Below, piece after piece: positions 3,343 to 46,411 of a stretch of DNA of 52,974 bases. A program made the position numbers and the translations under genes. Below the pieces are notes generated by a model. That model was not told the origin of the DNA, searched no databases, and was given only the letters and a program-made list of their open reading frames with translations. The stretch is from contig NZ_CAMFLC010000027.1 of assembly GCF_945957465.1 (NCBI RefSeq), positions 1 to 52,974 on the forward strand, read 5' to 3'. This stretch comes from an uncultured Leifsonia sp. GTDB lineage: Bacteria > Actinomycetota > Actinomycetes > Actinomycetales > Microbacteriaceae. Each line of letters begins with the position of its first letter. Within the stretch, counting starts at the first letter, position 1.

Positions 3343-4025
3343 CCGTTGCCGAGGTGCACCACGAGCCGGTTGTGCACCTGCGTCACGTTCGGCGACGACC
3401 ATGCGGTCAGCTCGGCCTCGTGCTTCTCGATCCAGGAGCGCACCGTGCCGGTGAGCGTCAGCTCGTTCCCCTCGGCGGTGACGACGATGTTGCGCGCGTC
3501 GAGGGCGGCGTTACGGATGATCGCCTCGCGGACGCGGTGCTCGACGTCCTGAGCGTCGGGACGCCCGCTGAGCTGGATGCGGTTGTCCACGGCGTGCACG
3601 CCGTCGATCCTGCGCACGGCCTTCGCGGCAGCGGCACGCTGGTAGTTCCAGTCGACCAGGCCGCTCAGGGTGACCAGGTGCCCCTGCACCTCGAGGTGGA
3701 TGCGCTCTGCCGGGATCCCCGACGTCCAGCGGAGCACATCGTTCACCGCCTTGGCCAGTTCGAGACCCTCGGGCTCGCCCAGGATGGAGCGCAGGTGCAG
3801 CTCGTCGTTGACCGCGACCACGCCGACCACCCGCTGGGCGGCCATGACGGCGACGGCGCGCTGGCTCAACGATGTGACCTCGCCGCTCAGCGTGACGACT
3901 CCTCCGTCGACCGCCACCCCGATGTGTGCCGGGTCGTCCAGCCCGGCCTGCCAGCCGAGCTCGGACTGGACGTCGTGACGGACCTTGAGGTCCGCCTCGG
4001 ATTGGGTGACTGTTCTCGTGTTCAT
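3339..4025 (-). CDS. Triple BON-domain protein
   Basis: 228 aa with three consecutive BON repeats (about residues 10-80, 85-150 and 155-225), each with the V-x-L-x-G core (GVVTLSGEV, HLVTLSGLV, NELTLTGTV). BON domains are usually envelope- or lipid-associated in stress proteins, but no signal peptide is seen here, so location is uncertain. Close paralogue of the gene at 19437-20153; both share a VAVDGGVVTL-x-GEV block. The ATG lies 36 nt from DevR box 2 and has no Shine-Dalgarno (preceding bases CAGCCTTGCAGC), so a leaderless transcript is predicted. Confidence 0.88.
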   Translation of the reverse strand: MNTRTVTQSEADLKVRHDVQSELGWQAGLDDPAHIGVAVDGGVVTLSGEVTSLSQRAVAVMAAQRVVGVVAVNDELHLRSILGEPEGLELAKAVNDVLRWTSGIPAERIHLEVQGHLVTLSGLVDWNYQRAAAAKAVRRIDGVHAVDNRIQLSGRPDAQDVEHRVREAIIRNAALDARNIVVTAEGNELTLTGTVRSWIEKHEAELTAWSSPNVTQVHNRLVVHLGNG

Positions 4026-4061
4026 GCTGCAAGGCTGCCGCCCGGGACCCGGTCGTCACGA

Positions 4062-4075
4062 GGGGCGAAAGTCCC
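4062..4075 (-). promoter_or_regulatory. DevR-type box 2
   Basis: GGGGCGAAAGTCCC, 36 nt before the BON gene start at 4025. The -10-like CAGCCT (minus strand) lies at 4032-4037 and would place transcription initiation at or within a few bases of the start codon. Confidence 0.7.
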
Positions 4076-4160
4076 GCCGTTCGAACGCGAGCGAGAGGGC
4101 CGCGATCCGGCCGGAGCGGCGAGCGGAATCGGACGGCCGCCGCCGGGTACCGCCGGACAT

Positions 4161-4195
4161 CCGCGGCACGGGAGCCCCTACACCCCGTGCCGCGG
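4161..4195 (-). terminator. Strong hairpin between the BON gene and adh (terminator or RNA structure)
   Basis: Perfect 12-bp GC-rich inverted repeat, CCGCGGCACGGG (4161-4172) and CCCGTGCCGCGG (4184-4195), with an 11-nt loop and no U-tract on either strand. It could end readthrough from the adh gene (stop at 4389) or form the 3' structure of a small RNA started from the orphan box at 4361-4374. The 4026-4388 gap otherwise holds only boxes 2 and 3 and no convincing reading frame. Confidence 0.5.
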
Positions 4196-4360
4196 ACCGG
4201 TCGCCGATGCGTGAACGATCGCCCCGCCTCGACCGCGGGTGCGAGTCGCACCGACGACTCCGGTCGCGTCGTCGCAGCCCCCCATTCGGAATGCGACGGC
4301 CGTTCGACCGGACGTGTCTCCGGCTTCTTCCATGATGGACGAGAGCGTCGGGAGGCGGTC

Positions 4361-4374
4361 GGGCCTTAAGTCCC
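4361..4374 (-). promoter_or_regulatory. DevR-type box 3 (orphan)
   Basis: GGGCCTTAAGTCCC, one of the best matches to the mycobacterial core. On the minus strand a CATCAT -10-like element lies at 4332-4337 with the same 23-bp spacing as other boxes, but no gene with start signals follows. See the small RNA finding. Confidence 0.65.
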
Positions 4375-4388
4375 TCCGAGCGCGACCC

Positions 4389-5459: not shown

Positions 5460-5512
5460 GGCGGCTCCTTTCGATGTGGCGCCAGTCTCGTCCGCGGCCA
5501 TGCGCCCGGGAT

Positions 5513-5526
5513 GGGCCGAAGGTCCC
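5513..5526 (-). promoter_or_regulatory. DevR-type box 4
   Basis: GGGCCGAAGGTCCC, 53 nt before the adh start. Minus-strand -10-like GAGACT at 5484-5489. Confidence 0.65.
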
Positions 5527-5572: not shown

Positions 5573-5586
5573 GGGTCTTTCGGCCC
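5573..5586 (+). promoter_or_regulatory. DevR-type box 5
   Basis: GGGTCTTTCGGCCC, 52 nt before the membrane protein start at 5639. -10-like GACGCT at 5610-5615. Confidence 0.65.
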
Positions 5587-10090: not shown

Positions 10091-10995
10091 CCGACCTCGC
10101 GGTGGGCGCGGGCGATCACGACCGGCACCCGGACGTTGAAGAGCACGTCATGGCTGACCGACCCGAGCATGATCCGTTTGGCGCTGCGTCGATTGTGCGT
10201 TCCCACGACGAGCATTCTGTGGCCTTCCGCGGCCGCGACCAAGCCCCTCGATGGGGAGGCCTCGACGACGTCGGCCCGGACGTCGATCGTCGGCCGCAGC
10301 TCGCGTGCCGCCTCCGCGGCCGCGTCCACGATGCGCTGCCGACGGTCGCCGAGCGACCGCTCCGGAACCAGCCCGGCCAGCAGAGGGTTGGCCTCGTAGC
10401 CGACGCAGACGATCCGCAGGGGCTCGTCGAGCGCAGCCGCCTCCTCGGCGGCGAGCGAGACCGCCGGCTCGGAGGAGAGCTGGCCGTCCACTCCGACGAC
10501 GACACCGATGCCCGACCGGTCCCAGCCGTGCGGAACGACCGCCACCGAGCACGCCGCCGTCGCCGCGACGCGTGTGGCGAGCGATCCCGCGAACGCCCGC
10601 TCCCGATCGGCGCTCGACCGCGCTCCGACCACCAGCAGGTCGGCGTCGCGCGAAGCCCAGGCGAGCTCGGTGCCGACATGGCCGTAGAGGTAGCGTGTCG
10701 AGACGTTCAGCGACGGCCGCGGCGCTGCGTGCGCCTGCGACCCGCTCAGCGCACGAGAGCGCGCCGGCGCCCGTTCCGCGATGCGCAGCGCGGACTCCCG
10801 CGTCGCGTCCAGCAGCGACTTCGCGGCCAGCACGAGCAGGTCGCCCGGCTGGTCGGACGCGTCGCCCCAGCTGCGCTCGATCACGAACACCAGTTCCAGC
10901 CGTGCTCCATCGCGCACGGCGCGCTCGGTCGCCCACGTCAGTGCGGCCCGGTGCTCCGGCTTGCCGTCCACTCCGACCATGATGGTGTCCGTCAT
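10087..10995 (-). CDS. Tandem universal stress protein
   Basis: 302 aa, two Usp domains (about 1-150 and 155-302), each opening with the hydrophobic strand and Asp (TIMVGVDG, GVVVGVDG). The second domain retains an ATP-binding-like end (VVGTHNRRSAKRIMLGSVSH). Cytoplasmic; USPs of this type are prominent DosR targets in mycobacteria. ATG 10995 is chosen because GGGAGGA lies 6-8 nt upstream and the Usp fold starts there. First gene of an operon with the Mg-type ATPase, from DevR box 6. Confidence 0.9.
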   Translation of the reverse strand: MTDTIMVGVDGKPEHRAALTWATERAVRDGARLELVFVIERSWGDASDQPGDLLVLAAKSLLDATRESALRIAERAPARSRALSGSQAHAAPRPSLNVSTRYLYGHVGTELAWASRDADLLVVGARSSADRERAFAGSLATRVAATAACSVAVVPHGWDRSGIGVVVGVDGQLSSEPAVSLAAEEAAALDEPLRIVCVGYEANPLLAGLVPERSLGDRRQRIVDAAAEAARELRPTIDVRADVVEASPSRGLVAAAEGHRMLVVGTHNRRSAKRIMLGSVSHDVLFNVRVPVVIARAHREVG

Positions 10996-11052: not shown

Positions 11053-11066
11053 GTGCCGAAAGTCCC
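11053..11066 (-). promoter_or_regulatory. DevR-type box 6
   Basis: GTGCCGAAAGTCCC, 57 nt before the USP start at 10995. Minus-strand -10-like GAGGCT at 11024-11029. Its centre is 16 bp from box 7. Confidence 0.62.
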
Positions 11067-11068
11067 AC

Positions 11069-11082
11069 GTGACTTTCGGCCC
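11069..11082 (+). promoter_or_regulatory. DevR-type box 7
   Basis: GTGACTTTCGGCCC, 37 nt before the flavodoxin-like start at 11120. -10-like GACGCT at 11107-11112, consistent with a near-leaderless transcript. Confidence 0.62.
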
Positions 11083-11119
11083 TGGCCCGGCCGAGCCGAC
11101 CCGCGGGACGCTGGACGGC

Positions 11120-11674
11120 ATGAACGAGTCCGCTCCGGTCGCACACGCGGCCATCGTCTACGAGTCCATGTTCGGCAGCACGCGACAGGTGGCCGAGGCC
11201 ATCGCCGAGGGTCTGCGCGAGTCCACGACGGTCACCGTCGTGCGCGTCAAGGACGCGCCGGAGACGTTCCCCGACGTCGACCTCCTGCTGGTCGGTGCCC
11301 CGACCCACGCGCACGGGATGAGCCGGCCCGCCACGCGCGTGGAGGCCGGGAAGTGGAGCGACGACCCGGACCGCTCGCTGGTGCTCGAACCGGACGCCGA
11401 AGGCATCGGCGTGCGCGAGTGGCTGGACACCTGCGGCGAGCCGCCTGCGCGTTTCGCGGCCTTCGACACGCGGGCCGACATGACCGAGCTCTTCACCGGC
11501 TCCGCCGCCTCGGCCATCGACAAGCGCCTGCACCGGCTCGGCTCGCGCCGGCTCGCGCACAAGCACAGCTTCCTCGTCGACAAGGACAGCGTCCTGGTGC
11601 CCGGACAACTCGACGAGGCGCGCGCGTGGGGGCGGGAGCTCAGCGCGGCGCTGCGGTCGGTCGCGATGGTGTGA
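11120..11674 (+). CDS. Flavodoxin-domain protein
   Basis: 184 aa. N-terminal FMN phosphate-binding loop YESMFGSTRQVAEAIA and the LLLVGAPTHAHG strand identify a flavodoxin-like fold, typically a soluble FMN electron carrier or quinone/protoporphyrinogen reductase relative. The C-terminal half keeps FDTRADM and SAASAIDKRL. No Shine-Dalgarno precedes ATG 11120 (GGGACGCTGGACGGC), and the box is 37 nt away, so leaderless translation is predicted. It is transcribed divergently from the USP/Mg-ATPase operon. Confidence 0.85.
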   Translation: MNESAPVAHAAIVYESMFGSTRQVAEAIAEGLRESTTVTVVRVKDAPETFPDVDLLLVGAPTHAHGMSRPATRVEAGKWSDDPDRSLVLEPDAEGIGVREWLDTCGEPPARFAAFDTRADMTELFTGSAASAIDKRLHRLGSRRLAHKHSFLVDKDSVLVPGQLDEARAWGRELSAALRSVAMV

Positions 11675-13599: not shown

Positions 13600-13613
13600 G
13601 GGTCCTTAGTCCC
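13600..13613 (-). promoter_or_regulatory. DevR-type box 8
   Basis: GGGTCCTTAGTCCC, 47 nt before the USP start at 13552. Minus-strand -10-like GAAACT at 13572-13577. Its centre is 16 bp from box 9. Confidence 0.68.
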
Positions 13614-13615
13614 GT

Positions 13616-13629
13616 GGGACCTTCGGCCC
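13616..13629 (+). promoter_or_regulatory. DevR-type box 9, upstream of the devS-devR operon
   Basis: GGGACCTTCGGCCC, 93 nt before the adh start at 13723. -10-like TTGACT at 13652-13657. The operon it leads (adh, usp, sensor kinase, regulator) would make the regulator autoregulated. Confidence 0.68.
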
Positions 13630-15688: not shown

Positions 15689-17374
15689 CCGGGCGATGAG
15701 CCGATCACGTTCCCCGACGCGCCTCGGGCGGAGCTCGACCGCGCCCTCGGCGAGCTCGTCGAGCAGGCCAGGAAGGTCCTCGACACCCAGGGGCGGCTCC
15801 GCGCCCTGGTGAGGGCCAACCGTGCGGTCGTCTCGCACCTGGAGCTGCCTGTCGTGCTGCGGACGATCGTCGAGGCCGCCGTCGAACTGGTGGGCGCCCG
15901 GTACGGAGCGCTCGGGGTGATCGCCGAGGGCGGCGGGCTGGAGCAGTTCATCCACGTCGGGATGGGTGACGAGGCCGTAGCCCGGATCGGTCACCTCCCG
16001 GAAGGCCACGGACTCCTCGGCGCTCTCATCGACGACCCGCGGCCGATCCGGCTCGACTCGATCGCGGACGACCCGCGCTCCTCCGGCTTCCCCGACGGCC
16101 ACCCGCCGATGACCGCCTTCCTCGGCGTCCCGATCGCCGTTCGCGACACCGTGTTCGGCAACCTCTATCTCACCGATCCGGTGGCGGGCGGGTTCACGGA
16201 GGACGACGAACAGCTCGTGAAGGCCCTCGCCGCCAACGCAGGCTTCGCCATCGACAACGCCAGACTGTTCGCCGAGACCGTCGCCCGCCAGGCGTGGAGC
16301 GCCTCCGCCGCCGAGATGACGACGACCATCCTGGGAAGCGACTCGGCGGGCGCGCACGAGGAGTTCGCCGATCGGGCCGCGACGCTTCTCGGCGCGCGCG
16401 CGGTGTTCGTGCTCGAACCCCGCGGCCGCGACAACGCCTACCGCGTGCTCGCGTCCAGCGACGAGGCCCCGCATCCGGCAGAACTCGTGATCGACAACGA
16501 ACGCGTCCACAGCGCCGTCGAGGGATCCCAGCCCACCCGCCTCGACGAGCTGAGCGGGCTCGGCGCGGCCGGCGGGGGCGAGGCGGGTCCGGCGCTCGTC
16601 GTGCCGTTCGACGGACGGGCGGGCGACCCACAGGTCCTGGTCGTCGTCCGCCGGAGCGATGCCCGTCCGTTCTCGGCTTTCGAGCTCGAACGCGCGGTGT
16701 TCTTCGCCCGGCAGGCGGCCATCGCGATGGAGCTCGCCGACGCACGCGCCGACCGGGAACGGGTGGCGCTGCTGGAGGACCGGGCGCGCATCGCCCGCGA
16801 CCTCCACGACCACGTCATCCAGCAGCTGTTCGGAGCCGGGCTCGAACTGCAGAGCATCGAGTCCGAGCTGCCGCCCGGCCGGGCGGCCGAGCGGATCGAC
16901 GCCACGGTGAAGTCGCTCGACGACACCATCGCGCAGATCCGCACGGCCATCTTCGCGCTCTCACGCCAGCGCGGCGGCGGCGAGAGCCTCCGCCACCGTC
17001 TGCTCGATATCGTGCAAGAGGTCGGCGACGCGCTCCCGCACCCGGCCACCGTGTCGTTCTCCGGCCCGGTGGACGTCGTCTGCGACGCCGAACTGGCCGA
17101 CGACATCGCCGCGTTCGTACGGGAGGGGCTCACCAACGTCGTCCGCCATGCCGGCGCCGACACGGCGACGGTGGAGGTCGTGGCCACAGCGGACCAGATC
17201 ACCGTCGACCTCGCCGACGACGGCACCGGCATGGGCGAGACCCGACGCCGAAGCGGCCTCCGCAATCTGTCCGAACGCGCGGAGAGCAGAGCGGGCGTGC
17301 TCGAGCTGGAGTCGACGCCGCAGGGCACCCGTCTGCACCTGCGCCTGCCCGTGCCGACCGAAGGGGTGCGATGA
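15686..17374 (+). CDS. devS: DevS/DosS-like GAF-domain sensor histidine kinase (predicted ATT start)
   Basis: 562 aa if started at ATT 15686. GAF domain 1 (about residues 50-200) carries FPDGHPPMTAFLGVP; the His, residue 139, aligns with the heme-ligand His149 of M. tuberculosis DosS (from memory of the family), suggesting a heme gas/redox sensor. A degenerate second GAF (about 215-360) follows, then HisKA_3 with phospho-acceptor His374 (RDLHDHVIQQLFG) and an HATPase domain (REGLTNVVRHA, DDGTGMG). The first in-frame GTG (15809) would remove 41 residues and has no Shine-Dalgarno; ATT 15686 has GAGAGGAGG 6 nt upstream and gives the usual family length. The regulator overlaps by 4 nt. Confidence 0.88.
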   Translation: MPGDEPITFPDAPRAELDRALGELVEQARKVLDTQGRLRALVRANRAVVSHLELPVVLRTIVEAAVELVGARYGALGVIAEGGGLEQFIHVGMGDEAVARIGHLPEGHGLLGALIDDPRPIRLDSIADDPRSSGFPDGHPPMTAFLGVPIAVRDTVFGNLYLTDPVAGGFTEDDEQLVKALAANAGFAIDNARLFAETVARQAWSASAAEMTTTILGSDSAGAHEEFADRAATLLGARAVFVLEPRGRDNAYRVLASSDEAPHPAELVIDNERVHSAVEGSQPTRLDELSGLGAAGGGEAGPALVVPFDGRAGDPQVLVVVRRSDARPFSAFELERAVFFARQAAIAMELADARADRERVALLEDRARIARDLHDHVIQQLFGAGLELQSIESELPPGRAAERIDATVKSLDDTIAQIRTAIFALSRQRGGGESLRHRLLDIVQEVGDALPHPATVSFSGPVDVVCDAELADDIAAFVREGLTNVVRHAGADTATVEVVATADQITVDLADDGTGMGETRRRSGLRNLSERAESRAGVLELESTPQGTRLHLRLPVPTEGVR

Positions 17375-18015
17375 CCACGACACCGATCCGCGTCTTCCTG
17401 GCGGACGACCACGAGATCGTCCGCCGCGGCATCGCCGCCCTCATCGACGCACAGGATGACATGGAGGTGGTGGGAGAGGCGGAGACCGCCGCACAGGCGC
17501 GGGCGCGCATCCTCGCCGTGCGACCGGACGTCGCCGTGCTCGACGTGCGGCTCCCGGACGGCAGCGGCATCGACGTCTGCCGCGCCGTCAAGCAAGCCGA
17601 GGCCGGCATCCGCTGCCTGATGCTGACCGCCTACGACGACGAGGACGCGCTGCGGAGCGCCATCATCGCCGGGGCGGACGGCTACGTGGTCAAAGACATC
17701 CGGGCCAGCACGCTGCTGGAGGACATCCGGTCGGCGTTCCGCGGCAAGCGCCTGATCGATCCCCGCATCGCCGGCCGGGTCGCGGCCACGCTGCGCGAAC
17801 CGGCGGACGACCCGCGATTCGCCTCGCTGGGACTCCGGGAGCGGCAAGTGCTCGCGCTGATCGCCGACGGCCGGACCAACCGCCAGATCGCCGAACGCCT
17901 CGGCCTCGCCGAGAAGACGGTCAAGAACTACGTGAGCTCGCTGCTCGCCAAGCTCGGCCTCGTACGGAGGACGCAGGCCGCGGTGCTCCACCTCGAGCAC
18001 CGCGGCCACGCCTGA
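17371..18015 (+). CDS. devR: DevR/DosR-like NarL-family response regulator
   Basis: 214 aa. Receiver domain with acidic pocket D12-D13, phospho-acceptor D58 (VAVLDVRLPDG), T86 and K108, then a linker and LuxR-type HTH. The recognition helix EKTVKNYVSSLLAKLG with RRTQAAV after it nearly matches M. tuberculosis DevR; K182, K185 and N186 correspond to the DNA-contacting Lys179, Lys182 and Asn183 there. This supports it as the protein that reads the GGGNC-type palindromes across the window (inference). Translationally coupled to the kinase (ATGA overlap). No box lies directly in front, so expression depends on box 9. Confidence 0.92.
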   Translation: MTTTPIRVFLADDHEIVRRGIAALIDAQDDMEVVGEAETAAQARARILAVRPDVAVLDVRLPDGSGIDVCRAVKQAEAGIRCLMLTAYDDEDALRSAIIAGADGYVVKDIRASTLLEDIRSAFRGKRLIDPRIAGRVAATLREPADDPRFASLGLRERQVLALIADGRTNRQIAERLGLAEKTVKNYVSSLLAKLGLVRRTQAAVLHLEHRGHA

Positions 18016-19362: not shown

Positions 19363-19376
19363 GGGCCGAAAGTCCC
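19363..19376 (-). promoter_or_regulatory. DevR-type box 10
   Basis: GGGCCGAAAGTCCC, 70 nt before the hsp20 start. Minus-strand -10 TAGCGT at 19334-19339, a full TANNNT match. Confidence 0.7.
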
Positions 19377-19386: not shown

Positions 19387-19400
19387 GGGACCTTGGACTC
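19387..19400 (+). promoter_or_regulatory. DevR-type box 11
   Basis: GGGACCTTGGACTC, 36 nt before the second BON gene. -10-like GACCCT at 19424-19429. Its centre is 24 bp from box 10. Confidence 0.6.
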
Positions 19401-19436
19401 ATCCGGCGCCGGGACGTTCGGCGGACCCTGGAGGGC

Positions 19437-20153
19437 ATGAGCATCAGCAACGCACCCGAGTCGCACGCGCCGGCATCCACGCCCGCCGCCCGGACCTTCA
19501 GCGATCTGGCGGTCCGCCGGGCCGTCGAATCCGAGCTCGCCTGGACTCCCGACATCACCGCACCCGGCATCGGGGTCGCCGTCGACGGCGGCGTCGTCAC
19601 CCTCACCGGAGAGGTCGCCACCCTCCACGAGCGCATCGCGGCGGTGGACGCCGCGCAGCGCGTCGCCGGAGTGCGCACGGTCGCCGACGAGCTGCGGCTG
19701 CCCGACACGGCGGCCGAGCCGCACGGCCGCCGTCTGGCGGCGGCCGTCGACGGCATCCTCGCCTGGACAGCCGGTGTGCCGCACGAAGGCATCCGTGCCG
19801 ACGTCGAAGGCAACCACGTGATCCTGACGGGCGAAGTGGAGTGGGACGCGGAGCGCGCGGCGGCCAAGCGTGCGGTCGAGCGCGTCGCGGGCGTCCACTC
19901 GGTCGAGAACCGCATCGAGCTCACCCGCAGGCCGCACGCGGACGACGTCGCAGAGGAAATCCGGAACGCCCTCGTCCGCAACGCGATCCTCGACGCCCGA
20001 CGGATCGTCGTGACGGTCGACGGCGACGAGGTCACCCTGACCGGTGCCGTCAGCTCGTGGACCGAGCACCAGCAGACCATGCGGACCGCCTGGTCGTCGC
20101 CGCACGTGCGGCAGGTGCACGACCGGCTGCGGGTGGAGCCGAAGGAGATCTGA
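19437..20153 (+). CDS. Triple BON-domain protein (paralogue)
   Basis: 238 aa, three BON repeats after an Ala/Pro-rich N terminus (VVTLTGEVAT, HVILTGEVEW, EVTLTGAVSS as cores). Strongly similar to the gene at 3339-4025, including the order and spacing of repeats, so the two arose by duplication. No export signal is visible. ATG 19437 has GGAGGG only 1 nt away, too close for a normal Shine-Dalgarno, and is 36 nt from DevR box 11: predicted leaderless. Confidence 0.88.
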   Translation: MSISNAPESHAPASTPAARTFSDLAVRRAVESELAWTPDITAPGIGVAVDGGVVTLTGEVATLHERIAAVDAAQRVAGVRTVADELRLPDTAAEPHGRRLAAAVDGILAWTAGVPHEGIRADVEGNHVILTGEVEWDAERAAAKRAVERVAGVHSVENRIELTRRPHADDVAEEIRNALVRNAILDARRIVVTVDGDEVTLTGAVSSWTEHQQTMRTAWSSPHVRQVHDRLRVEPKEI

Positions 20154-21588: not shown

Positions 21589-21602
21589 GGGCACAAAGTC
21601 CC
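21589..21602 (-). promoter_or_regulatory. DevR-type box 12
   Basis: GGGCACAAAGTCCC, 49 nt before the USP start at 21539. Minus-strand -10-like CAGAGT at 21560-21565. Confidence 0.6.
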
Positions 21603-21613
21603 GCCGGGCGAGC

Positions 21614-21627
21614 GGGACCTTCTGCCC
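21614..21627 (+). promoter_or_regulatory. DevR-type box 13
   Basis: GGGACCTTCTGCCC, 51 nt before the gene at 21679. -10-like TTGTCT at 21651-21656. Its centre is 25 bp from box 12. Confidence 0.6.
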
Positions 21628-21678: not shown

Positions 21679-23649
21679 ATGTTCACCGATCGCAGCCAAG
21701 CCGGGCATTCGCTCGCGGATCGTCTGCGCGATCTTCGGGATTCCGACGCCGTCGTCCTCGGCCTTCCACGCGGCGGGGTGCCCGTCGCCGCGGTGGTCGC
21801 AGAGGAGCTCGCGCTGCCGCTCGACGTCATCGTGGTGCGCAAACTCGGCATCCCCGGACAGCCGGAGGTCGCGATGGGCGCCATCGGCGAAGGCGGTGCG
21901 GAGGTGTTGAACCCGTCGATCGTCGCTCGCGGCTGGATCTCCGAGGAGGAGGTGGAGGCGGTCGAGGCGAAGGAGCGCGCCGTGCTCGCCCAACGGCTCG
22001 AGCTGCTGCGCGAAGGCCGCGACCCCGTCGACCTGCGCGGGCGGCTGGCGATCGTCGTCGATGACGGGATCGCGACGGGGGCGACCGCGAAGGTCGCCTG
22101 CGTGGTTGCCCGACGGCTCGGGGCGAGGGAGGTGGTCGTCGCCGCGCCCGTGATCTCGCCCAACGCACTGAACGAGTTGGAGGACGCCGACCGGGTCGCC
22201 TGCGTGCTGCTGCCTTCGAGGTTCGAGGCGGTCGGTCAGTACTATCGCGACTTCGGCCAGACCGACGACGAGGAGGTCGTCCGGCTCCTGCACGAGGCGT
22301 CCCTGCGGCCGCGTCGCCCGCGGTTTCCCGAGCCCGACCCGGCCGATCCGCCGGCGATCGCCGAAGTCCAGGCGATGGCGGCACCGCTGCTGACGGAAGC
22401 GGACCTCGAGACCGTCGCCGAGCAGGCGAACCGCGCCCGGTTCATCTGCATCGGCGAGGCGTCGCACGGCACCCACGAGTTCTACACCTGGCGGGCCGCA
22501 CTCACCAAGCGGCTGATCGCGCGAGGAGACGTCCGCTGGATCGGCGTCGAGGGCGATTGGCCCGACTGCTTCCGCATCGACCAGTGGGTCCGCGGTCGCA
22601 CCGAGCAGTGGGAGGACGCCCGGCAACTGCTTTCCGGGTTCGAACGGTGGCCGCGCTGGATGTGGGCGAACACCGAGGTGGCCGACTTTCTGGAGTGGCT
22701 GCACTCCTGGAACCTCGGCCAGGAGCCGAGCAGACGCGTCGGGTTCTACGGCTTGGACGTCTACTCGCTGTGGGAGTCGCTGGAGGCGGTCATCGACTGG
22801 CTCGCGGCGAACGCACCGGACGCCGTCCCGACGGCACTGCGGGCGTGGCGCTGCTTCGAGCCGTACGGGGAGGATCCGCAGGACTACGCCTGGGCCACCC
22901 GGCTGGTGCCGGCCAGTTGCGAGCCCGATGTGATCGCGCTCCTCACGAGCGTGCGCGAGCATGCCGGCCACGCTGCTGCCGGCTTCGACGACGACGAGTC
23001 GCGGCTCGACGTGCTGCAGAACGCGCTGACCGCGGCGGACGCCGAGCACTACTACCGGGTCATGCTGCAGGGCGACCGCGAGTCGTGGAACATCCGCGAC
23101 ACGCACATGGCCGACACCGCAGACCGGCTCGCGGAGCGCGCCGGCCCGGACAGCCGGGGCGTCGTCTGGGCGCACAACACGCACGTCGGCGACGCGCGCG
23201 GCACCACGATGGGCAACGAGGGCATGGTCAACATCGGCGAACTGCTACGGGAGCGGCACGGCTTGGACGATGTCTTCCTCGTCGGGTTCGCCTCCCGGGG
23301 AGGAACGGTGATCGCCGGCGCATCGTGGGGCGCGACGGAGAAGGTGTACCCGCTGCCGAAGGCGAAGGCGGGCAGCCACGAAGATCTGCTCGGGAGGGCG
23401 CTCCCCGCCCCCGCCGTGCTGCGGTTCGCGGCAGCGGAAGGCACCGAATGGCTCACCCGCCAGCGCGGGCACCGCGCCGTCGGCGTCGTCTACGATCCGC
23501 GTCGAGAGACCGGCAACTATGTGCCGACGGTCATGGGGCGCCGCTACGACGCGCTGCTCTGGATCCCGGAGACGACCGCGCTCACCCCGCTGGCCCACGA
23601 GCCCCACCCGGAGTCGCCGGAACTCGAGACGGAGCCGTCGGGGTTCTGA
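21679..23649 (+). CDS. Phosphoribosyltransferase - erythromycin esterase-like fusion
   Basis: 656 aa. Residues 1 to about 215 are a phosphoribosyltransferase-like domain (GLPRGGVPVAAVV, VDDGIATGATAKVA). Residues about 235-640 are an erythromycin-esterase/succinoglycan-biosynthesis-type domain, with GEASHGTHEFY, EGDWPDCF, VVWAHNTHVGDARGTTM and a late VVYDPRRETGNYV. The conserved His/Glu residues of the EreA-type site are present. M. tuberculosis Rv2030c, next to hspX in the DosR regulon, has the same fusion. True substrate unknown; macrolide resistance should not be assumed. Start ATG follows GAGGAGGAG. Confidence 0.9.
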   Translation: MFTDRSQAGHSLADRLRDLRDSDAVVLGLPRGGVPVAAVVAEELALPLDVIVVRKLGIPGQPEVAMGAIGEGGAEVLNPSIVARGWISEEEVEAVEAKERAVLAQRLELLREGRDPVDLRGRLAIVVDDGIATGATAKVACVVARRLGAREVVVAAPVISPNALNELEDADRVACVLLPSRFEAVGQYYRDFGQTDDEEVVRLLHEASLRPRRPRFPEPDPADPPAIAEVQAMAAPLLTEADLETVAEQANRARFICIGEASHGTHEFYTWRAALTKRLIARGDVRWIGVEGDWPDCFRIDQWVRGRTEQWEDARQLLSGFERWPRWMWANTEVADFLEWLHSWNLGQEPSRRVGFYGLDVYSLWESLEAVIDWLAANAPDAVPTALRAWRCFEPYGEDPQDYAWATRLVPASCEPDVIALLTSVREHAGHAAAGFDDDESRLDVLQNALTAADAEHYYRVMLQGDRESWNIRDTHMADTADRLAERAGPDSRGVVWAHNTHVGDARGTTMGNEGMVNIGELLRERHGLDDVFLVGFASRGGTVIAGASWGATEKVYPLPKAKAGSHEDLLGRALPAPAVLRFAAAEGTEWLTRQRGHRAVGVVYDPRRETGNYVPTVMGRRYDALLWIPETTALTPLAHEPHPESPELETEPSGF

Positions 23650-23738: not shown

Positions 23739-24272
23739 ATGCCCCGGTTCGACGCGCCCTCTCGTTGCAGCAGCGGGTCGTCCGTCGGGTTCCGCTGGTT
23801 CGGCGTGCCGAGCGCGAACCGAGGCGAGGACCTGCAGGTCGCTACGGAGGCGTTCATGGCTGCGCTGAAGCCCCAGGGGCGCGTCTGGAACCCATTCGCA
23901 GAGCGGATGGCACGCTCGGAGTTCCGGGATCGGGTTCGAGCCGCGGCTCGGGGGGAACTCGAACCGGTGGATGAGGTCAAGCCGGTCGATGTACGCAATC
24001 CGCCGCCGCTGTACGAAATCCGATGGCAGGACATCCCTGTCACTGATCGAGATGGCGACCGCATCGTCCACGGCACGGCTCTGGTGCGGATGTACCACTC
24101 CGAACCGACCGCGGTGCCGGATCACTTCGTCGGACACCACATCCACGAGAAGCTGATCGATGTCGAAGACGTGAACCGTAAGCAGAATGCCGAGATCCGA
24201 GTCGCGCTGTCGTTCTACCGCCTGGGTGAGTCCACCGGTTGGGGGATCGACATCGACACCGGCGGTGTATAG
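23739..24272 (+). CDS. Hypothetical protein, candidate HigB/RelE-like toxin of a TAC module
   Basis: 177 aa, not confidently recognised. The C-terminal half reads LYEIRWQ, then a basic/aromatic strand ALVRMYHSEP, then VGHHIHEKL and QNAEIRVALSFY. That order loosely recalls HigB/RelE toxins (EIRW-type strand, hydrophobic strand with Lys/His, then a helix). It directly precedes an XRE regulator and a SecB-like gene, as in the toxin-antitoxin-chaperone locus Rv1955-Rv1957. A TACGAT -10-like element (23727-23732) ends 6 nt before the ATG, suggesting leaderless expression. Less GC-rich than its neighbours. Toxin role is inference. Confidence 0.55.
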   Translation: MPRFDAPSRCSSGSSVGFRWFGVPSANRGEDLQVATEAFMAALKPQGRVWNPFAERMARSEFRDRVRAAARGELEPVDEVKPVDVRNPPPLYEIRWQDIPVTDRDGDRIVHGTALVRMYHSEPTAVPDHFVGHHIHEKLIDVEDVNRKQNAEIRVALSFYRLGESTGWGIDIDTGGV

Positions 24273-24273
24273 T
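24268..24273 (+). promoter_or_regulatory. -10 element TATAGT before the XRE gene
   Basis: TATAGT overlaps the stop codon of the upstream gene and ends 9 nt before ATG 24283, so transcripts would have almost no leader. No convincing -35 element is visible. Confidence 0.4.
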
Positions 24274-24282
24274 TTTTACTCT

Positions 24283-24654
24283 ATGAACGAGGACGAGGTC
24301 GCGCGAATCGACGCGCTCGCGGAGGATCTGGTGGCCGAGCACCGCATTCTCATGCAGACCCTCGTCGCTCATCGCAAGGCGCATGAGCTGACACAGGAGA
24401 CGGTCGCAGAGCGCATGGGCGTAAGCCAACCGACCGTGGCAGCGTTCGAACGCTACGACGCCAACCCGACTCTCTCGACGATCCGTCGGTACGCGCTGGC
24501 TGTCGGCGCCGGTATCCGCCATCACGTCGACGACCGCTGCAGTGACCCCGAGACCGAGCTCCGGATGATCGCGGCCGGCTCCGACTTCCAATGGCAGCAC
24601 AAGCCGGTGCTGGGGTGGTCTCAGAGCGCGGTCCTGGAGACCAAGCTTGTCTGA
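24283..24654 (+). CDS. XRE-family regulator, candidate antitoxin
   Basis: 123 aa. Helix-turn-helix at about residues 35-90 (LTQETVAERMGVSQPTVAAF) of Cro/C1 type, followed by a C-terminal extension rich in aromatic residues (FQWQHKPVLGW). In TAC systems the antitoxin HigA1 carries a C-terminal chaperone-addiction extension bound by its SecB-like partner; this tail could play that part (inference). Lies 10 nt after the candidate toxin gene and overlaps the SecB-like gene by 8 nt. No Shine-Dalgarno is evident. Confidence 0.8.
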   Translation: MNEDEVARIDALAEDLVAEHRILMQTLVAHRKAHELTQETVAERMGVSQPTVAAFERYDANPTLSTIRRYALAVGAGIRHHVDDRCSDPETELRMIAAGSDFQWQHKPVLGWSQSAVLETKLV

Positions 24655-25105
24655 AGATTCAACCGAGCCCGCCACGGTTGTCCGGTTGGTTCACGACGTG
24701 CAATTGCTGGGCATCCAGCAAACCGAGCTGGCTGCCAGACGCGGCAGCGGTGACGCGATCGAAAACGCTCAGGCGGAGCCTGTGTACGGGCTCAACGTGA
24801 AGGGCGGCGACGGCAGCAACACCTTCCGAGTCGGCCTGCGGACCGAGATCCAGCTAGGCGACGGATCGATCGTGTCAGAGATCGAAGCAGAATACGCCCT
24901 CAGCACGATCCCCTATGCCAGCATCGAGGAGCAGACGAAGATCGACTTCGCCAACGAAGTCGCCATCATGGCAATACTGCCGTTCACACGGCAGGCGATC
25001 GCCGACATCACCGCACGAGTATTCGGCGCAGCGCTCCTCATGCCGATCATTCAGCGCGGGCAGCTCGTCTTCGGCCTTCCCGACTCACGGGAGGCGGAAG
25101 GCTAG
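24647..25105 (+). CDS. SecB-like chaperone protein (TAC type)
   Basis: 152 aa, TTG start overlapping the end of the XRE gene. The central beta strands (YGLNVKGGDGSNTFRVGLR, VSEIEAEYALS) and the terminal part AILPFTRQAIADITARVFGA plus LLMPIIQRGQLVF match the SecB pattern (compare [20 protein letters not shown] in E. coli SecB). Actinobacteria generally lack general secretory SecB and carry SecB-like proteins mostly in toxin-antitoxin-chaperone loci, so the context supports a dedicated chaperone. Identification is from remembered family patterns, not a search. Confidence 0.72.
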   Translation: MSEDSTEPATVVRLVHDVQLLGIQQTELAARRGSGDAIENAQAEPVYGLNVKGGDGSNTFRVGLRTEIQLGDGSIVSEIEAEYALSTIPYASIEEQTKIDFANEVAIMAILPFTRQAIADITARVFGAALLMPIIQRGQLVFGLPDSREAEG

Positions 25106-27635: not shown

Positions 27636-28610
27636 CTACAGGGACTTTCGGCCCGCATCCGCCGCGAGGCCGGCCTCCAGCCGCTCGACGTCCGCGCGGC
27701 GGCAGAGCTCGGAGGCCGGGGTCAGAACGGCGGCGGTCCCGGCGGCGACCGCGGTGCGGAACGCCTCCTCCACCGTGCGCCCCTGCGCGATCCGCAGCAC
27801 GAACCCGGCGAGGAAGCTGTCTCCCGCCCCGACGCTGCTGACCGCCTCCACCGCGGGAGCGGACAGCCGGTAGGTCGCGGTGGCGGAGACGAGCAGCGCG
27901 CCCTCCGAGCCGAGCGTCAGGGCGACGAACTCGGCGGCACCGGCACCGATCAGGGAGGCCGCGGCGTCCACGCGGCTCTGCTCGTCGTCGAGGGTCGCTC
28001 CGACATGGGCCTCCAGTTCCCGGCGGCTCGGCGCGACCAGGAAGGTCCCCTCTGCGAGCGCAGCCGCCAGGGCCGGCCCGGTGGAGTCGACCACGCAGCG
28101 GGCGCCGCCGTCGCGCGCCACCCGGACCACGCGCGCATAGAAGTCGTGGGGCACCCCCGGTGGGAGACTGCCGCTGGCGACGACGATGCCGCCGGGCGCG
28201 ACGGTCTGCTCCACGAAGTCGAGGCAGGAGCGCCACTCGCCCTCACTCAGCTCCGGGCCTTCCAGCACGAACCGGAACTGCGCGCCTCCCGCGCCGTCGT
28301 CGACGGTGAAGCTTTCGCGCGTGCTCCCCTGGATCGGGACGACGACGCCCGGCACGCGCTCGGCCTCCACCAGACGACGGTAGGCCTCCCCGATCGGGCC
28401 GCCTGCCGTGTACAGCGCGAGAGTCCTGCCACCGAGACGGCGCACCACGCGGGACACGTTGACCCCGCCGCCGCCCGGCGCGAGGCGGCTGGTGCTGCAG
28501 CGCAGCTTGTGCTCGGCGACGACCTGCGGGGTCGACGTGCTGATGTCGAGGGCGGGGTTGACGGTCACGGTCAGGATCGGGGCGACCCGCTCATCGGCTG
28601 CATGGTTCAC
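27636..28610 (-). CDS. pfkB: PfkB-type 6-phosphofructokinase / ribokinase-family sugar kinase
   Basis: 324 aa. TVNPALDIS and GGGGVNVSRVVRRLGG at the N terminus and the PfkB signature VSSVGAGDSFLAGFVL (catalytic Asp in GAGDS) at about residue 255. Likely fructose-6-phosphate (or a related hexose phosphate) kinase; M. tuberculosis PfkB (Rv2029c) is a DosR target. Start is GTG 28610: no ATG is in frame and no Shine-Dalgarno precedes it, but TATCCT occupies exactly positions -12 to -7, so a leaderless GTG start is predicted. The last codons overlap the ppsA box. Confidence 0.9.
   Translation of the reverse strand: MNHAADERVAPILTVTVNPALDISTSTPQVVAEHKLRCSTSRLAPGGGGVNVSRVVRRLGGRTLALYTAGGPIGEAYRRLVEAERVPGVVVPIQGSTRESFTVDDGAGGAQFRFVLEGPELSEGEWRSCLDFVEQTVAPGGIVVASGSLPPGVPHDFYARVVRVARDGGARCVVDSTGPALAAALAEGTFLVAPSRRELEAHVGATLDDEQSRVDAAASLIGAGAAEFVALTLGSEGALLVSATATYRLSAPAVEAVSSVGAGDSFLAGFVLRIAQGRTVEEAFRTAVAAGTAAVLTPASELCRRADVERLEAGLAADAGRKSL
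27641..27654 (-). promoter_or_regulatory. DevR-type box 14, inside the pfkB 3' end
   Basis: GGGACTTTCGGCCC, a near-ideal box located within the last codons of pfkB. It drives ppsA 80 nt downstream; minus-strand -10 TAGCGT at 27611-27616. Confidence 0.72.
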
Positions 28611-28645
28611 GGGAGCAGGATAGGCCGGCCGATATGCCGCACCGC

Positions 28646-28659
28646 AGGTCCTTAGACCC
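28646..28659. promoter_or_regulatory. DevR-type box 15, shared by divergent pfkB and acsA
   Basis: AGGTCCTTAGACCC, single palindrome exactly 35 nt from the start codons on both sides (28610 minus, 28695 plus). -10-like TATCCT (28617-28622, minus) and TTGGCT (28683-28688, plus). Confidence 0.7.
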
Positions 28660-28694
28660 TCCCCTTCCGCTCATCCCGCGGCTTGGCTGGCCGC

Positions 28695-30493
<1,799 letters not shown>

Positions 30494-30497
<4 letters not shown>

Positions 30498-38633: not shown

Positions 38634-38647
38634 GGGGCTTAAGGCCT
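38634..38647 (-). promoter_or_regulatory. DevR-type box 16
   Basis: GGGGCTTAAGGCCT, 59 nt before the Ca-type ATPase start. Minus-strand -10-like CTGGAT at 38605-38610 (weakest -10 match). Confidence 0.58.
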
Positions 38648-38659
38648 CCCCGGACGCGG

Positions 38660-38673
38660 GGGACCTTCGACTC
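38660..38673 (+). promoter_or_regulatory. DevR-type box 17
   Basis: GGGACCTTCGACTC, 50 nt before the HAD-GH65 gene. -10 TATCGT at 38697-38702 (full TANNNT). Centre 26 bp from box 16. Confidence 0.63.
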
Positions 38674-41871: not shown

Positions 41872-42186
41872 TCACGCGTCGAGGGAGGTGAGCCACCAGC
41901 GGCCGCCGTCGCCGTTGAGGACCTCGAAGACATGCCGCTCTCCGGCGACGGAACTGGCGTCGATCCGCCAGCCGGTGACGAGTGCCGGGAACGGCGTCTC
42001 GTCGGGCGTGAACACCACCCTGCCGCGGGGAACGGGTGGCGAGTCGGGGTAGTATCGCACTCCGCTCCAGTCCAGACGCACCGGCACGCCCTCTTCGAGC
42101 ACGAGGGTCACCGGGTCGCGGCGCTCCGTGTCCGTGTCGACGGCCGTGGACCCTCCGCCGTCGCCCGGTCGGTTCCGGGCCCTCAT
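41872..42186 (-). CDS. Hypothetical protein (DUF6504-like?)
   Basis: 104 aa, soluble. Central VRLDWSGVRYYPDSPPVP and a C-terminal HVFEVLNGDGGRWWLTSL end weakly suggest the DUF6504-type fold; not certain. Translationally coupled to the preceding gene (ATGA overlap at 42183-42186) and therefore under DevR box 18. Ends 20 nt from the convergent GH65 gene. Confidence 0.65.
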   Translation of the reverse strand: MRARNRPGDGGGSTAVDTDTERRDPVTLVLEEGVPVRLDWSGVRYYPDSPPVPRGRVVFTPDETPFPALVTGWRIDASSVAGERHVFEVLNGDGGRWWLTSLDA

Positions 42187-42626
42187 CGGCGTACCTCCGC
42201 TGCGGAACGGTCGGCGGGTTCGGTGTAGAGGCGTTCGATCATCGCTCGGGACAGCGAACCGAGCCGTGCCGGGCCGGCGATCCGTTCGTCGTCTCGCCAG
42301 ATCCCCCGGTCGGAGAGGACGACGACCGTCGCCTCGTGCGACACCGCCGCCCAGTCGGAATGCGACTCGACGAGCCGGACGCTGTGCTCGCCGTACCAGC
42401 GGGCGAGCGCCCTGAGGAGATAGCGCTCCGATGCCGACACCGGATGGAGCTGCACGAGCGCGACCGGTCGTCCGGCCGAGAGCGCGCCGACACAGAACCG
42501 GCGCAGCTCGCCGTTCGACACGTGCGGCCCGGCGACGAGCAGGACCGTCCGCGATCCGTGCCGGCCCTCGCCGGCGTGCTCGGTGTCCGGCGCCTTCTGC
42601 TGCCGCGGTTCGTTCCACCTGGTCAT
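42183..42626 (-). CDS. Hypothetical protein, DevR-type promoter
   Basis: 147 aa. Alternating hydrophobic strands (SRTVLLVAGPHVS, RPVALVQLHPVSA, ATVVVLSDRGIW) suggest a Rossmann-like alpha/beta fold; not recognised. No Shine-Dalgarno before ATG 42626; the box lies 35 nt upstream and GATCCT occupies -12 to -7, so a leaderless transcript is predicted. First of two coupled genes. Confidence 0.7.
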   Translation of the reverse strand: MTRWNEPRQQKAPDTEHAGEGRHGSRTVLLVAGPHVSNGELRRFCVGALSAGRPVALVQLHPVSASERYLLRALARWYGEHSVRLVESHSDWAAVSHEATVVVLSDRGIWRDDERIAGPARLGSLSRAMIERLYTEPADRSAAEVRR

Positions 42627-42661: not shown

Positions 42662-42675
42662 GAGTCCAAAGTCCC
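42662..42675 (-). promoter_or_regulatory. DevR-type box 18
   Basis: GAGTCCAAAGTCCC, 35 nt before ATG 42626. Minus-strand -10-like GATCCT at 42633-42638. Confidence 0.62.
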
Positions 42676-43140: not shown

Positions 43141-43154
43141 GGGACCAAGGACCC
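43141..43154 (+). promoter_or_regulatory. DevR-type box 19
   Basis: GGGACCAAGGACCC, 90 nt before ATG 43245. -10-like CATGTT at 43179-43184. Confidence 0.62.
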
Positions 43155-43226: not shown

Positions 43227-43244
43227 AGATCAGGGGGTTCCGCC

Positions 43245-44384: not shown

Positions 44385-44400
44385 GAGAAGAGGCGCCGGA

Positions 44401-44589
44401 ATGTTCATTCTCACGGTCGCCATGGTGGTCATCACCACGTCCGTCGCGATCGCGATCGTCATCCTCGGGCTGCGATCGCCGAAGCTGAGCTCGTACGAGT
44501 CGCCGCCCCGGGATGGCGTCGCGGCCCGCGTCGCCGTGCCCGCCGCCCCCGACCGGGGCGAGCAGGCGGCTGGCGATCAGCCCGTGTGA
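44401..44589 (+). CDS. Small single-helix membrane protein
   Basis: 62 aa: hydrophobic helix at residues 2-24 and a polar tail rich in Ser, Pro and Arg. Begins 16 nt after the bactofilin-like gene with GAGG upstream, so probably co-expressed. Not recognised. Confidence 0.6.
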   Translation: MFILTVAMVVITTSVAIAIVILGLRSPKLSSYESPPRDGVAARVAVPAAPDRGEQAAGDQPV

Positions 44590-44608
44590 CGCGACGCGCC
44601 GAAAGGGC

Positions 44609-45508
44609 TCACCAGTCGCCGTCATCCGGTGCGTTCGGCACGACGAAGGCGTACTCCTTCGGTGTGACCAGCACCGGGCAGGGCAGGTTCAGCAGCACAT
44701 CGTGGCTGACCGAGCCGAGCAGCGAGGCCATGAAGCGGCCCCTGCCACGTGTCCCCACCACGATGGCCACCGCGCCGGTGCCGTGCTCCACGAGCGCCGC
44801 CGCGGGGTTGAGCCGCACGACGACCGGCACGATGGGAGCCGTCCTCGCGATCGGGATGTCCGCTATCGCCTCGGGGATGACCGCCTGCTCGCGCTCCAGG
44901 AAGGCCGGATCGGCGTTCTCGCCCGAGTCCAGCGCCCGCTGCAGCGCCTCCGGCACGTCCCACGCGTGCACGGCCTCGACCTGCGCTCCCCGCCAGCTCG
45001 CCTCGGTCACCGCCAGCGCCAGCGCGGACCGCGCGAAGCCGGAACGGTCCACGCCGACGACGACGACGTTGCGTTCGGGCGGCGGAGAATCCGGGATCAC
45101 GGCCACCGTGCACTCGGACTTCGCTGCGAGCTTCAACGGGAGGGTTCCGATCCTCGTGCCCGGTCGATCGGGGCGCTTGTCGGTGCCCACCACGAGCAGT
45201 GCCGCAGTACCGGATTCCCGCAGCAGCGCGCCGGCGGGCGGGCCGTCGACCCAGCGGGACTCCACCACGACATCCGGCGCCATCGCGCGCACGTGCCCGG
45301 CCGCCTGACGCAGCTCCACTTCGACGGTGGTCTCGAGGTCGAACCGGGGGCCGAACACGGCGCCGCCCAGACGGGTGTCGATCGCGTGGACGATCTCCAG
45401 GGTGCCGCCGCGTTCCGCGACCCGTGCGGTCGCCCAGTCCAGTGCCCGCCACGCGGACGGCGAGCCGTCGAAACCCACCACCGTTCGCCCGTCGGTCACG
45501 ACGTTCAC
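44609..45508 (-). CDS. Tandem universal stress protein
   Basis: 299 aa, two Usp domains; the second has a canonical nucleotide loop (GTRGRGRFMASLLGSVSH), the first is degenerate (GTDKRPDRPGTRIGTL). GTG 45508 overlaps the upstream stop (GTGA), giving a coupled split-barrel/USP pair; GTG 45499 is an alternative. Driven by the leftward promoter of box 20. Confidence 0.88.
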   Translation of the reverse strand: MNVVTDGRTVVGFDGSPSAWRALDWATARVAERGGTLEIVHAIDTRLGGAVFGPRFDLETTVEVELRQAAGHVRAMAPDVVVESRWVDGPPAGALLRESGTAALLVVGTDKRPDRPGTRIGTLPLKLAAKSECTVAVIPDSPPPERNVVVVGVDRSGFARSALALAVTEASWRGAQVEAVHAWDVPEALQRALDSGENADPAFLEREQAVIPEAIADIPIARTAPIVPVVVRLNPAAALVEHGTGAVAIVVGTRGRGRFMASLLGSVSHDVLLNLPCPVLVTPKEYAFVVPNAPDDGDW

Positions 45509-45996
45509 CACTCCCCCTCTGCGCGCCCGGTCAGGGTGTGCAGGTCCACCCGGAAGACGACGGCTGCCGTCGACGGCCGGCCGAGCGTCGCCTGCGCCTC
45601 GGGGAGGCGAGGGATGTCGAGGGTCCGCATCATGCCCAGCTCGGCGCCCTGGTGGGCGTCGGCGTTCGTGGGGACGAGGGGCCGGAAACGGTCGACCAGG
45701 AGCTCCATCGCCCGCTGCGCGTCCGCTCCGACGAGCTGCTCGAAGTGCCCCCACGCGATCACGCTCCGCCACCGGTCGATGTGGTCGAGTTCGTCCACCT
45801 CGAAGCACACCTCGGAGTGCGACCGCAGCGCCTGCACCTTGCGGCCCTGGGCGCTGTGGCAGTACACGGCGCCGTCGCGGTAGGCGTACGAGATCGGCAC
45901 CACATAGGGCCGGTCCTCGTCGATCAATCCCAGACGGCCGACCAGTGCGGTCGTCAGAAGGTCGTCGATCTCGTCGCGGTTCATCTCGGTGGGCAT
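45505..45996 (-). CDS. Pyridoxamine 5'-phosphate oxidase-like FMN-binding protein
   Basis: 163 aa split-barrel protein (GRLGLIDEDRPYVVPISYAY, WRSVIAWGHFEQL). Likely flavin or related cofactor binding. ATG 45996 has GGGAGGAG 7 nt upstream. Coupled to a USP gene, as is the other split-barrel gene at 12232-12651, although the gene order is reversed. Confidence 0.85.
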   Translation of the reverse strand: MPTEMNRDEIDDLLTTALVGRLGLIDEDRPYVVPISYAYRDGAVYCHSAQGRKVQALRSHSEVCFEVDELDHIDRWRSVIAWGHFEQLVGADAQRAMELLVDRFRPLVPTNADAHQGAELGMMRTLDIPRLPEAQATLGRPSTAAVVFRVDLHTLTGRAEGEW

Positions 45997-46058
45997 GCGG
46001 GGCTCCTCCCGGTCGTCGGCTCGCCTCCGAGCCTGCCGCTCCCCCGGAGACGCCGGTA

Positions 46059-46072
46059 AGGACTTTCGACCC
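46059..46072. promoter_or_regulatory. DevR-type box 20, shared by divergent genes
   Basis: AGGACTTTCGACCC. Leftward: 62 nt to ATG 45996, -10-like CAGGCT at 46030-46035. Rightward: 36 nt to ATG 46109, -10-like TCGAAT at 46097-46102. Confidence 0.65.
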
Positions 46073-46108
46073 TTGCCGAACGCGGGGCGCCGGCGGTCGA
46101 ATGGGCGC

Positions 46109-46411
46109 ATGAGAAACGACATCGGAACGTCCCCGACGGGGATGCACGGCGTGCCCGCATCCGGTCGCGTGCTGGTGGTCGCGGTCGTCGCCTGGAGCCT
46201 CGCCTGGAAAGGGGCGTCGATGTGGCGCGCGGCGCGCAACGGCAGCAAGCCGTGGTTCGTCACCCTGCTGCTGACCAACACCCTCGGCGCCCTCGACGCT
46301 ATCTACCTCTTCGGCGTCGATCGTCGGCACCGCAGGGAGGAGCTCGACGAAGTCACCATCCTGGAGATGACCGGCGAGCCCGAGCAGGAAGGTCACCGGC
46401 AGGAGACGTGA
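46109..46411 (+). CDS. Small membrane protein, DUF5652-like
   Basis: 100 aa, two hydrophobic segments (about 20-35, 48-68) with WKGASMWRAARNGSKPWFVTLLLTNTLGALDAIYLFGV-type signature split across them, resembling DUF5652. No Shine-Dalgarno before the ATG; 36 nt from box 20, so predicted leaderless. Followed after 46 nt by the SulP gene, possibly one transcript. Confidence 0.72.
   Translation: MRNDIGTSPTGMHGVPASGRVLVVAVVAWSLAWKGASMWRAARNGSKPWFVTLLLTNTLGALDAIYLFGVDRRHRREELDEVTILEMTGEPEQEGHRQET

Follow-up and report, generated by a model that had tools for sequence, protein, structure and literature searches.

A probable DosR/DevR-type regulon island of an uncultured Leifsonia species with one promoter geometry and two predicted leader classes

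The stretch of DNA analysed here, which we call the window, is an entire contig of 52,974 bases (71% GC) from the 4.06-Mb draft genome of an uncultured Leifsonia sp. It carries palindromic boxes of the DosR/DevR type upstream of 21 gene starts, and our analysis of its sequence indicates, with a probability that we put at about 0.85, that it is an actinobacterial DosR/DevR-type regulon island in which one class II activator geometry gives rise to two leader classes. The response regulator encoded in the window would bind boxes whose centres lie about 42.5 bp ahead of the transcription start site (TSS) and activate, in a class II manner, weak -10 elements beginning 23-25 nt past the box, which match NANNNT but in many cases lack the T in first place. 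Transcription would begin some 35-37 nt past the box, at a site that coincides exactly with the start codon of seven genes, yielding leaderless mRNA. The other fourteen start codons would lie 12-57 nt downstream of it and, with few exceptions, follow a Shine-Dalgarno (SD) site. Low oxygen would presumably be the inducing signal, and the leader class may affect translation. Most likely, the mix of leaderless and leadered genes reflects the general use of leaderless mRNAs in actinobacteria and not a device specific to dormancy.

The boxes and their presumed reader both pointed to a DosR/DevR-type regulon. A position weight matrix (PWM) was built from the 21 oriented boxes of the window and their reverse complements. 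At a cut-off score of 11.5, it found 23 boxes in the window, against 1.5 expected per window length from 400 kb of the same genome (11 boxes). The 21 starts are served by 19 of these boxes, of which two (28646-28659 and 46059-46072) are common to divergent genes; the DosR-type palindromes are clustered at the promoters of the window. When GGGACYTTNGKCCC was searched for with one mismatch in the whole genome, 13 of the 25 matches fell on this contig, which makes up 1.3% of the genome, indicating that the clustering is real and that most of the matches elsewhere may be due to chance. The best match of the response regulator (17371-18012) in the PDB was Mycobacterium tuberculosis DevR (3c3w, 206.8 bits; the next, VraR, gave 141.1 bits). 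It is a NarL-type protein with a recognition helix near-identical to that of DevR, and it presumably binds the boxes of the window. Its partner is a DevS/DosT-like GAF kinase, the first GAF domain of which matched 2vzw (listed as a probable histidine kinase, and which we take to be DosT) with 161.7 bits and DevS (2y8h) with 153.4 bits.

An earlier, sequence-only reading of the window had placed seven starts at 35-37 nt and fourteen at 47-93 nt from a box. All 21 distances were re-measured and proved correct. They amounted to 35 nt for 28610, 28695 and 42626, 36 nt for 4025, 19437 and 46109, and 37 nt for 11120, the other fourteen being 47, 49, 50, 51, 52, 53, 57, 59, 62, 70, 80, 89, 90 and 93 nt. 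Under a uniform null over 20-95 nt, the presence of 7/21 distances within one 3-nt window has a p value of 7.5e-4. The two classes also differed in their SD sites, as that reading had claimed in stating that the seven lacked a properly spaced site and that nearly all other starts had a strong one, with the weakest at 27560 and 43245. A core SD tetramer was present at -17 to -6 in 0/7 leaderless and 12/14 leadered genes (p = 3e-4), the two exceptions being 27560 and 43245 themselves. When the 20 nt preceding the start were paired with a general actinobacterial anti-SD sequence, the duplex energy ranged from -2.6 to -9.8 kcal/mol for the seven genes and from -10.2 to -14.1 kcal/mol for the fourteen (Mann-Whitney p = 1.5e-4), with no overlap between the ranges. 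The strongest value among the seven belonged to 19437, where a GGAGGG is present but too near the ATG. The base preceding the start is a C in all seven leaderless genes, yet also in nine of the fourteen leadered ones, and is weak evidence.

We considered the possibility that the seven genes have a second, upstream promoter giving a leadered mRNA, in which case the leaderless transcript would be one form only. According to excerpts of PMC6448022 (all papers are cited here from excerpts), leaderless transcripts were recorded for 1,099 M. smegmatis genes, 155 of which have leadered transcripts as well. Yet a leadered form would find no core SD tetramer at -17 to -6 in any of the seven genes of the window, and we consider a second promoter improbable.

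The -10 element occupied the same position in both classes. NANNNT begins 23-25 nt past the end of the box in 16/21 promoters (5/7 leaderless and 11/14 leadered). When the 34 nt following each box were shuffled 5000 times, the best 3-offset window contained a mean of 2.58 and a maximum of 7 promoters, and neither class taken alone was matched. This common offset indicates a shared promoter geometry in which the position of the start codon alone differs. With the hexamer at a constant offset, the predicted TSS falls at the same place throughout, which in seven genes is the start codon. If the start codon is taken as +1, a distance of 35 nt puts the box, by arithmetic, at -49 to -36 with its centre at -42.5. 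The sequence-only reading had located the -10 element at about -13 to -7 of all seven start codons. NANNNT is indeed found there in five of them, with 6-7 nt between the hexamer and the start codon, while the other two have degenerate hexamers; strict TANNNT occurs in one of the seven only. The first-place T is present in 5/16 regulon hexamers as compared with about 43/63 estimated for the leaderless signal of the genome (p = 0.01), as expected if these promoters need an activator.

The acs gene, which encodes the acyl/acetyl-CoA synthetase starting at 28695, was followed in 52 distinct loci (55 were given, and the duplicates L008, L009 and L156 were dropped). Twenty-four actinobacterial loci were taken from an 80-locus set by means of their record titles, a selection that omits seven loci from actinobacterial metagenome-assembled genomes (L012, L016, L017, L027, L032, L035 and L062), which the survey of box-linked genes described below does include. 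With a box score of at least 5, the acs start lay 34 (1 locus), 35 (18 loci) or 36 nt (5 loci) from the box in 24/52 loci, with none at 33, 37 or 38 nt and a mean of 0.5 loci at other positions. Raising the threshold to 11 left this geometry in 17/52 loci. The 24 loci with this geometry at a score of at least 5 include the genus of the window, Agromyces (L001, L005), Arthrobacter (L003, L006) and a further family (f18). By eye, Blastococcus (L011) agrees with a distance of 36 nt and a weaker box, and the Sinomonas locus (L009) was one of the duplicates dropped. The closest relatives of the window's acs are consistent with membership of the source genome in Microbacteriaceae. The spacer DNA was 29-48% identical between lineages, compared with 31% after shuffling. 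This conservation of the distance, though the spacer sequence has largely diverged, is the strongest evidence for leaderless starts.

In the other 28 loci, the 34-36 nt geometry was not found at a score of at least 5. The acs start lies at 39 nt in Agromyces L004, at 58-75 nt with a core SD in Streptomyces (L024, L060, L075, L076) and Actinacidiphila (L070), and at 69 nt without a core tetramer in Streptomyces L052, the rest having no box at a fitting place or being ambiguous. By eye, acs in L007, L010 and L112 (some Arthrobacter-type genomes) follows an upstream gene, has an SD site and seemingly lacks a promoter of its own. With strict cut-offs, acs is present in 3/28 genomes of the genus, 3/199 of the family, 12/396 of the order and 19/245 of family f6. 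Its sporadic occurrence in the genus suggests that the island, in whole or in part, has been gained and lost.

The same geometry recurred in genes other than acs. We surveyed 67 actinobacterial loci besides the window for genes, called with a home-made caller, that have a box scoring at least 12, and listed every in-frame ATG or GTG, making no choice of start. A start at 34-37 nt was found in 17/54 box-linked genes (2, 10, 4 and 1 at the successive distances), against 2.0 expected from flanking distances, and in 10/40 genes, against 1.5, when acs was left out. Eleven of the 54 came from the genome of the window, outside the latter, and three of these showed the leaderless geometry, where 0.4 would be expected. 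An additional, SD-led start lies downstream in two of the 17 peak genes; by reading, the peak gene of L076 probably starts at this downstream codon. When applied to the window, the same automatic procedure recovered 18/21 genes, missing 1777, 11120 and 21679. An artefact of start choice was considered as the cause of the pile-up of box-to-start distances and was rejected, since the all-codon histogram elsewhere still peaks at 34-37 nt.

Near relatives were compared over 80-kb stretches of two genomes of the same genus (G055 and G213) and another genome of the family (G191), in which few orthologues of window genes were found. The leaderless geometry of acs was present in all three, and box and leader were kept for the alcohol dehydrogenase (ADH) gene 5459 and the phosphoenolpyruvate (PEP)-synthase-like gene (G055) and for Hsp20 (G213). 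Two relatives of 21679 occur in G055, one box-less and the other preceded at 51 nt by a weak box (score 8.5). The G213 orthologue of 42626 was ambiguous. The BON protein, present in 4/396 order-level genomes including that of the window, gave no conservation test.

The sequence-only reading had further proposed that the same regulator feeds both leader classes, and that dormant ribosomes could thereby translate a chosen subset. The first part is supported, from sequence, by the DosR-type boxes, the fixed -10 spacing and the recurrence elsewhere. The second part found no such support. It would mean that selection has made a subset of the regulon leaderless to allow its translation by dormant or hibernating 70S ribosomes in hypoxia and recovery. 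Such selection would agree with the retention of the 34-36 nt geometry of acs across several families despite spacer turnover. In the excerpts available, a leaderless reporter in M. tuberculosis withstood starvation and nitric oxide better than an SD reporter did (PMC8485053), and both leaderless transcript levels in starvation and ribosome stabilisation factors under stress went up (PMC3898074, PMC9386245). The excerpts of PMC9386245 also state that SD-lacking transcripts are robustly translated during growth, and these published hints point both ways.

The genome itself provided a control. Among 215 first genes in 400 kb, a candidate start was preceded by TANNNT at 6 nt in 36 genes and at 7 nt in 12, over a baseline of 2.5 per position. 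This corresponds to a leaderless excess of 43/215 (20%), or of 63/215 (29%) with the looser NANNNT. The regulon was not enriched in comparison (7/21, 95% confidence interval 15-57%; Fisher p = 0.17 and 0.80). Its leaderless share being no higher than that of the rest of the genome, the split appears to be mostly ordinary biology of actinobacteria. Gene families, too, were found on both sides. Elsewhere, the leaderless geometry was seen for one universal stress protein (USP; L106) and for one Pyridox_ox_2 protein (L060), whereas in the window USPs and a Pyridox_ox_2 protein are leadered, and the Streptomyces acs genes with a readable box are leadered as well. No box was found in the 160 nt upstream of the hibernation-factor gene of the same genome. 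Selection of a leaderless subset for hibernating ribosomes therefore seems unlikely to us, and the idea of dormant ribosomes, for which this locus offers no specific support, is doubtful. A wider proposal would make leaderless initiation a selected output mode in DosR-type regulons of Micrococcales and their kin, in which selection on the box-to-start distance keeps acs and a few further genes leaderless, so that they are translated when low oxygen reduces SD-dependent initiation; it is speculative, with a small chance of being right. In excerpts from some of the papers on leaderless genes together with DosR or hypoxia, with subscription papers little covered, no leaderless subset of a DosR regulon was described, and a literature search pairing DosR with Microbacteriaceae returned nothing.

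Several points weigh against one geometry with two leader classes. The PWM was trained on the window's own boxes. A lax box pattern (up to 3 mismatches) showed no excess in the window, with 121 matches as compared with 134 in shuffles, and the genome-wide total for GGGACYTTNGKCCC (25) hardly differs from the 26 matches of its reversed control. No 16S gene was found in the draft genome, so that the anti-SD sequence used is a general actinobacterial one, and the first genes of the genome control came from a home-made gene caller. At 28695 (TTGGCT) and 46109 (TCGAAT), NANNNT is replaced at the same place by weaker hexamers. The PfkB orthologue of G055, though from the same genus, has no box within 150 nt. 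The G055 orthologues of the P-type ATPase gene 38574 and of 38724 are likewise box-less, indicating that regulon membership turns over. Finally, 46109, 28695 and 28610 have additional in-frame ATG or GTG codons downstream, and the home-made caller extends the 11120 gene to an upstream start at 10979. These last points would also fit a misassignment of the seven start codons, the true starts lying elsewhere behind SD sites and the 35-37 nt distances being coincidental. Yet 4025, 19437 and 42626 are each the sole in-frame ATG or GTG within 130 nt of the box, the start distance of acs is conserved while its spacer DNA largely is not, and the grouping of seven distances within 3 nt is poorly explained by coincidence. 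We consider misassignment highly improbable, and retain the reading of a single geometry with two leader classes.

The features of the window are collected in Table 1. The 84-bp intergenic region 28611-28694 contains one palindrome that apparently drives two divergent predicted leaderless genes, 35 nt away on each side. Paired boxes have their centres 16 bp apart at 11053-11082 and 13600-13629; in the remaining pairs, located between divergent genes, the centres are 24-26 or 60 bp apart. Single-box promoters account for 5/7 leaderless and 4/14 leadered genes, numbers too small for claiming a link. A strong box at 4361-4374 (score 17.9) has no start codon seen at a fitting distance on either strand, and may be a distal site or serve the transcription of a small RNA or a short unannotated open reading frame. 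The regulon protein encoded by 21679-23646 fuses a phosphoribosyltransferase to an erythromycin-esterase-like part. Three small box-less genes at 23739-25105, one encoding an HTH_3 protein and two without a Pfam match, have the look of an insertion into the stress island.

Table 1. Boxes, genes and regulatory proteins of the window; distances run from box to start codon
Feature	Position	Strand	Details
DosR-type box for 4025(-)	4062..4075	-	-10-like CAGCCT 4037-4032; ATG, 36 nt
BON-domain protein, predicted leaderless	3339..4025	-	Pfam BON 138.3 bits
Box for 11120(+)	11069..11082	+	-10-like GACGCT 11107-11112; 37 nt
Flavodoxin-domain protein, predicted leaderless	11120..11674	+	Pfam Flavodoxin_1 41.5 bits from residue 12; start picked by reading
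Box for 19437(+)	19387..19400	+	-10-like GACCCT 19424-19429; 36 nt
BON-domain protein, predicted leaderless	19437..20153	+	Pfam BON 148.7 bits
Palindromic box common to 28610(-) and 28695(+)	28646..28659	.	Hexamers TATCCT 28622-28617 (-), TTGGCT 28683-28688 (+)
PfkB-family sugar kinase, predicted leaderless	27636..28610	-	GTG start; Pfam PfkB 153.5 bits
Acyl/acetyl-CoA synthetase (acs), predicted leaderless	28695..30497	+	Pfam AMP-binding 257.2 bits
Box for 42626(-)	42662..42675	-	-10-like GATCCT 42638-42633; 35 nt
147-aa protein without Pfam match, predicted leaderless	42183..42626	-	
Box common to leaderless 46109(+) and leadered 45996(-)	46059..46072	.	36 and 62 nt; hexamers TCGAAT 46097-46102 toward 46109(+), CAGGCT toward 45996(-)
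DUF5652 protein, predicted leaderless	46109..46411	+	Pfam DUF5652 95.1 bits
Box of DUF1918 gene, start 1777	1674..1687	+	89 nt; SD GGAGGAG
Two boxes, divergent 5459(-) (ADH) and 5639(+)	5513-5526, 5573-5586	.	53 nt and 52 nt
Box of USP gene 10995(-)	11053..11066	-	57 nt
Adjacent boxes, 13552(-) and 13723(+)	13600..13629	.	47 nt and 93 nt
Box of Hsp20 gene 19292(-)	19363..19376	-	70 nt; second in-frame ATG at 52 nt
Two boxes, 21539(-) (USP) and 21679(+)	21589..21627	.	49 nt and 51 nt
Box of PEP-synthase-like gene 27560(-)	27641..27654	-	80 nt; within 3' end of PfkB gene; enzyme name assigned by reading
Two boxes, 38574(-) (P-type ATPase) and 38724(+)	38634..38673	.	59 nt (GTG) and 50 nt
Box of bactofilin-like gene 43245(+)	43141..43154	+	90 nt
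DevR/DosR-like response regulator	17371..18015	+	Presumed reader of the boxes
DevS-like GAF histidine kinase	15809..17374	+	Start codon uncertain; GAF, HisKA_3 and HATPase domains

With a fixed spacing, the TSS and the leader class of DosR-type genes would become predictable from sequence alone, which would also aid the choice of start codons. Should leaderlessness matter in dormancy, the paired leaderless and leadered genes under one regulator would form a natural test system, to which the pair 45996/46109 under one box would belong.

The window resembles the M. tuberculosis DosR/DevR regulon in its response regulator, its GAF kinase and the type of its boxes. In the excerpts available, a DosR site of M. 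tuberculosis lies 34 bp upstream of a mapped TSS, an arrangement termed canonical and class II-like (PMC5360333), and DevR target promoters have a proximal site overlapping the -35 region (PMC3029386). The spacing between box and -10 element in the window agrees with a proximal box overlapping -35, about 34 bp from the TSS, the latter being predicted here. In both systems the -10 elements depart from TANNNT (PMC5360333 for M. tuberculosis). Unlike the M. tuberculosis regulon as described in these excerpts, that of the window is predicted to be partly leaderless. OsdR/DevR of Streptomyces coelicolor is likewise a DevR orthologue, with a palindromic AGGGCCGATCGGCCCT consensus and USP genes nearby, as far as the excerpts of PMC5069765 go; in Streptomyces loci with a readable box, however, acs is leadered, whereas acs of the window is predicted to be leaderless. 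The seven predicted leaderless genes also resemble the leaderless (TA-led) genes of actinobacteria, which, in excerpts of PMC3160421, lack an SD and carry a -10 element some 12 bp ahead of the start codon. According to the excerpts, 22-40% of the genes whose starts were mapped in three mycobacteria are leaderless (22-26% in PMC3898074, 24% in PMC6448022 and 38-40% in PMC8022548), shares similar to those estimated for the genome of the window. In contrast to the TA-led genes of its own genome, the regulon of the window has a NANNNT that begins with T in only 5/16 promoters.

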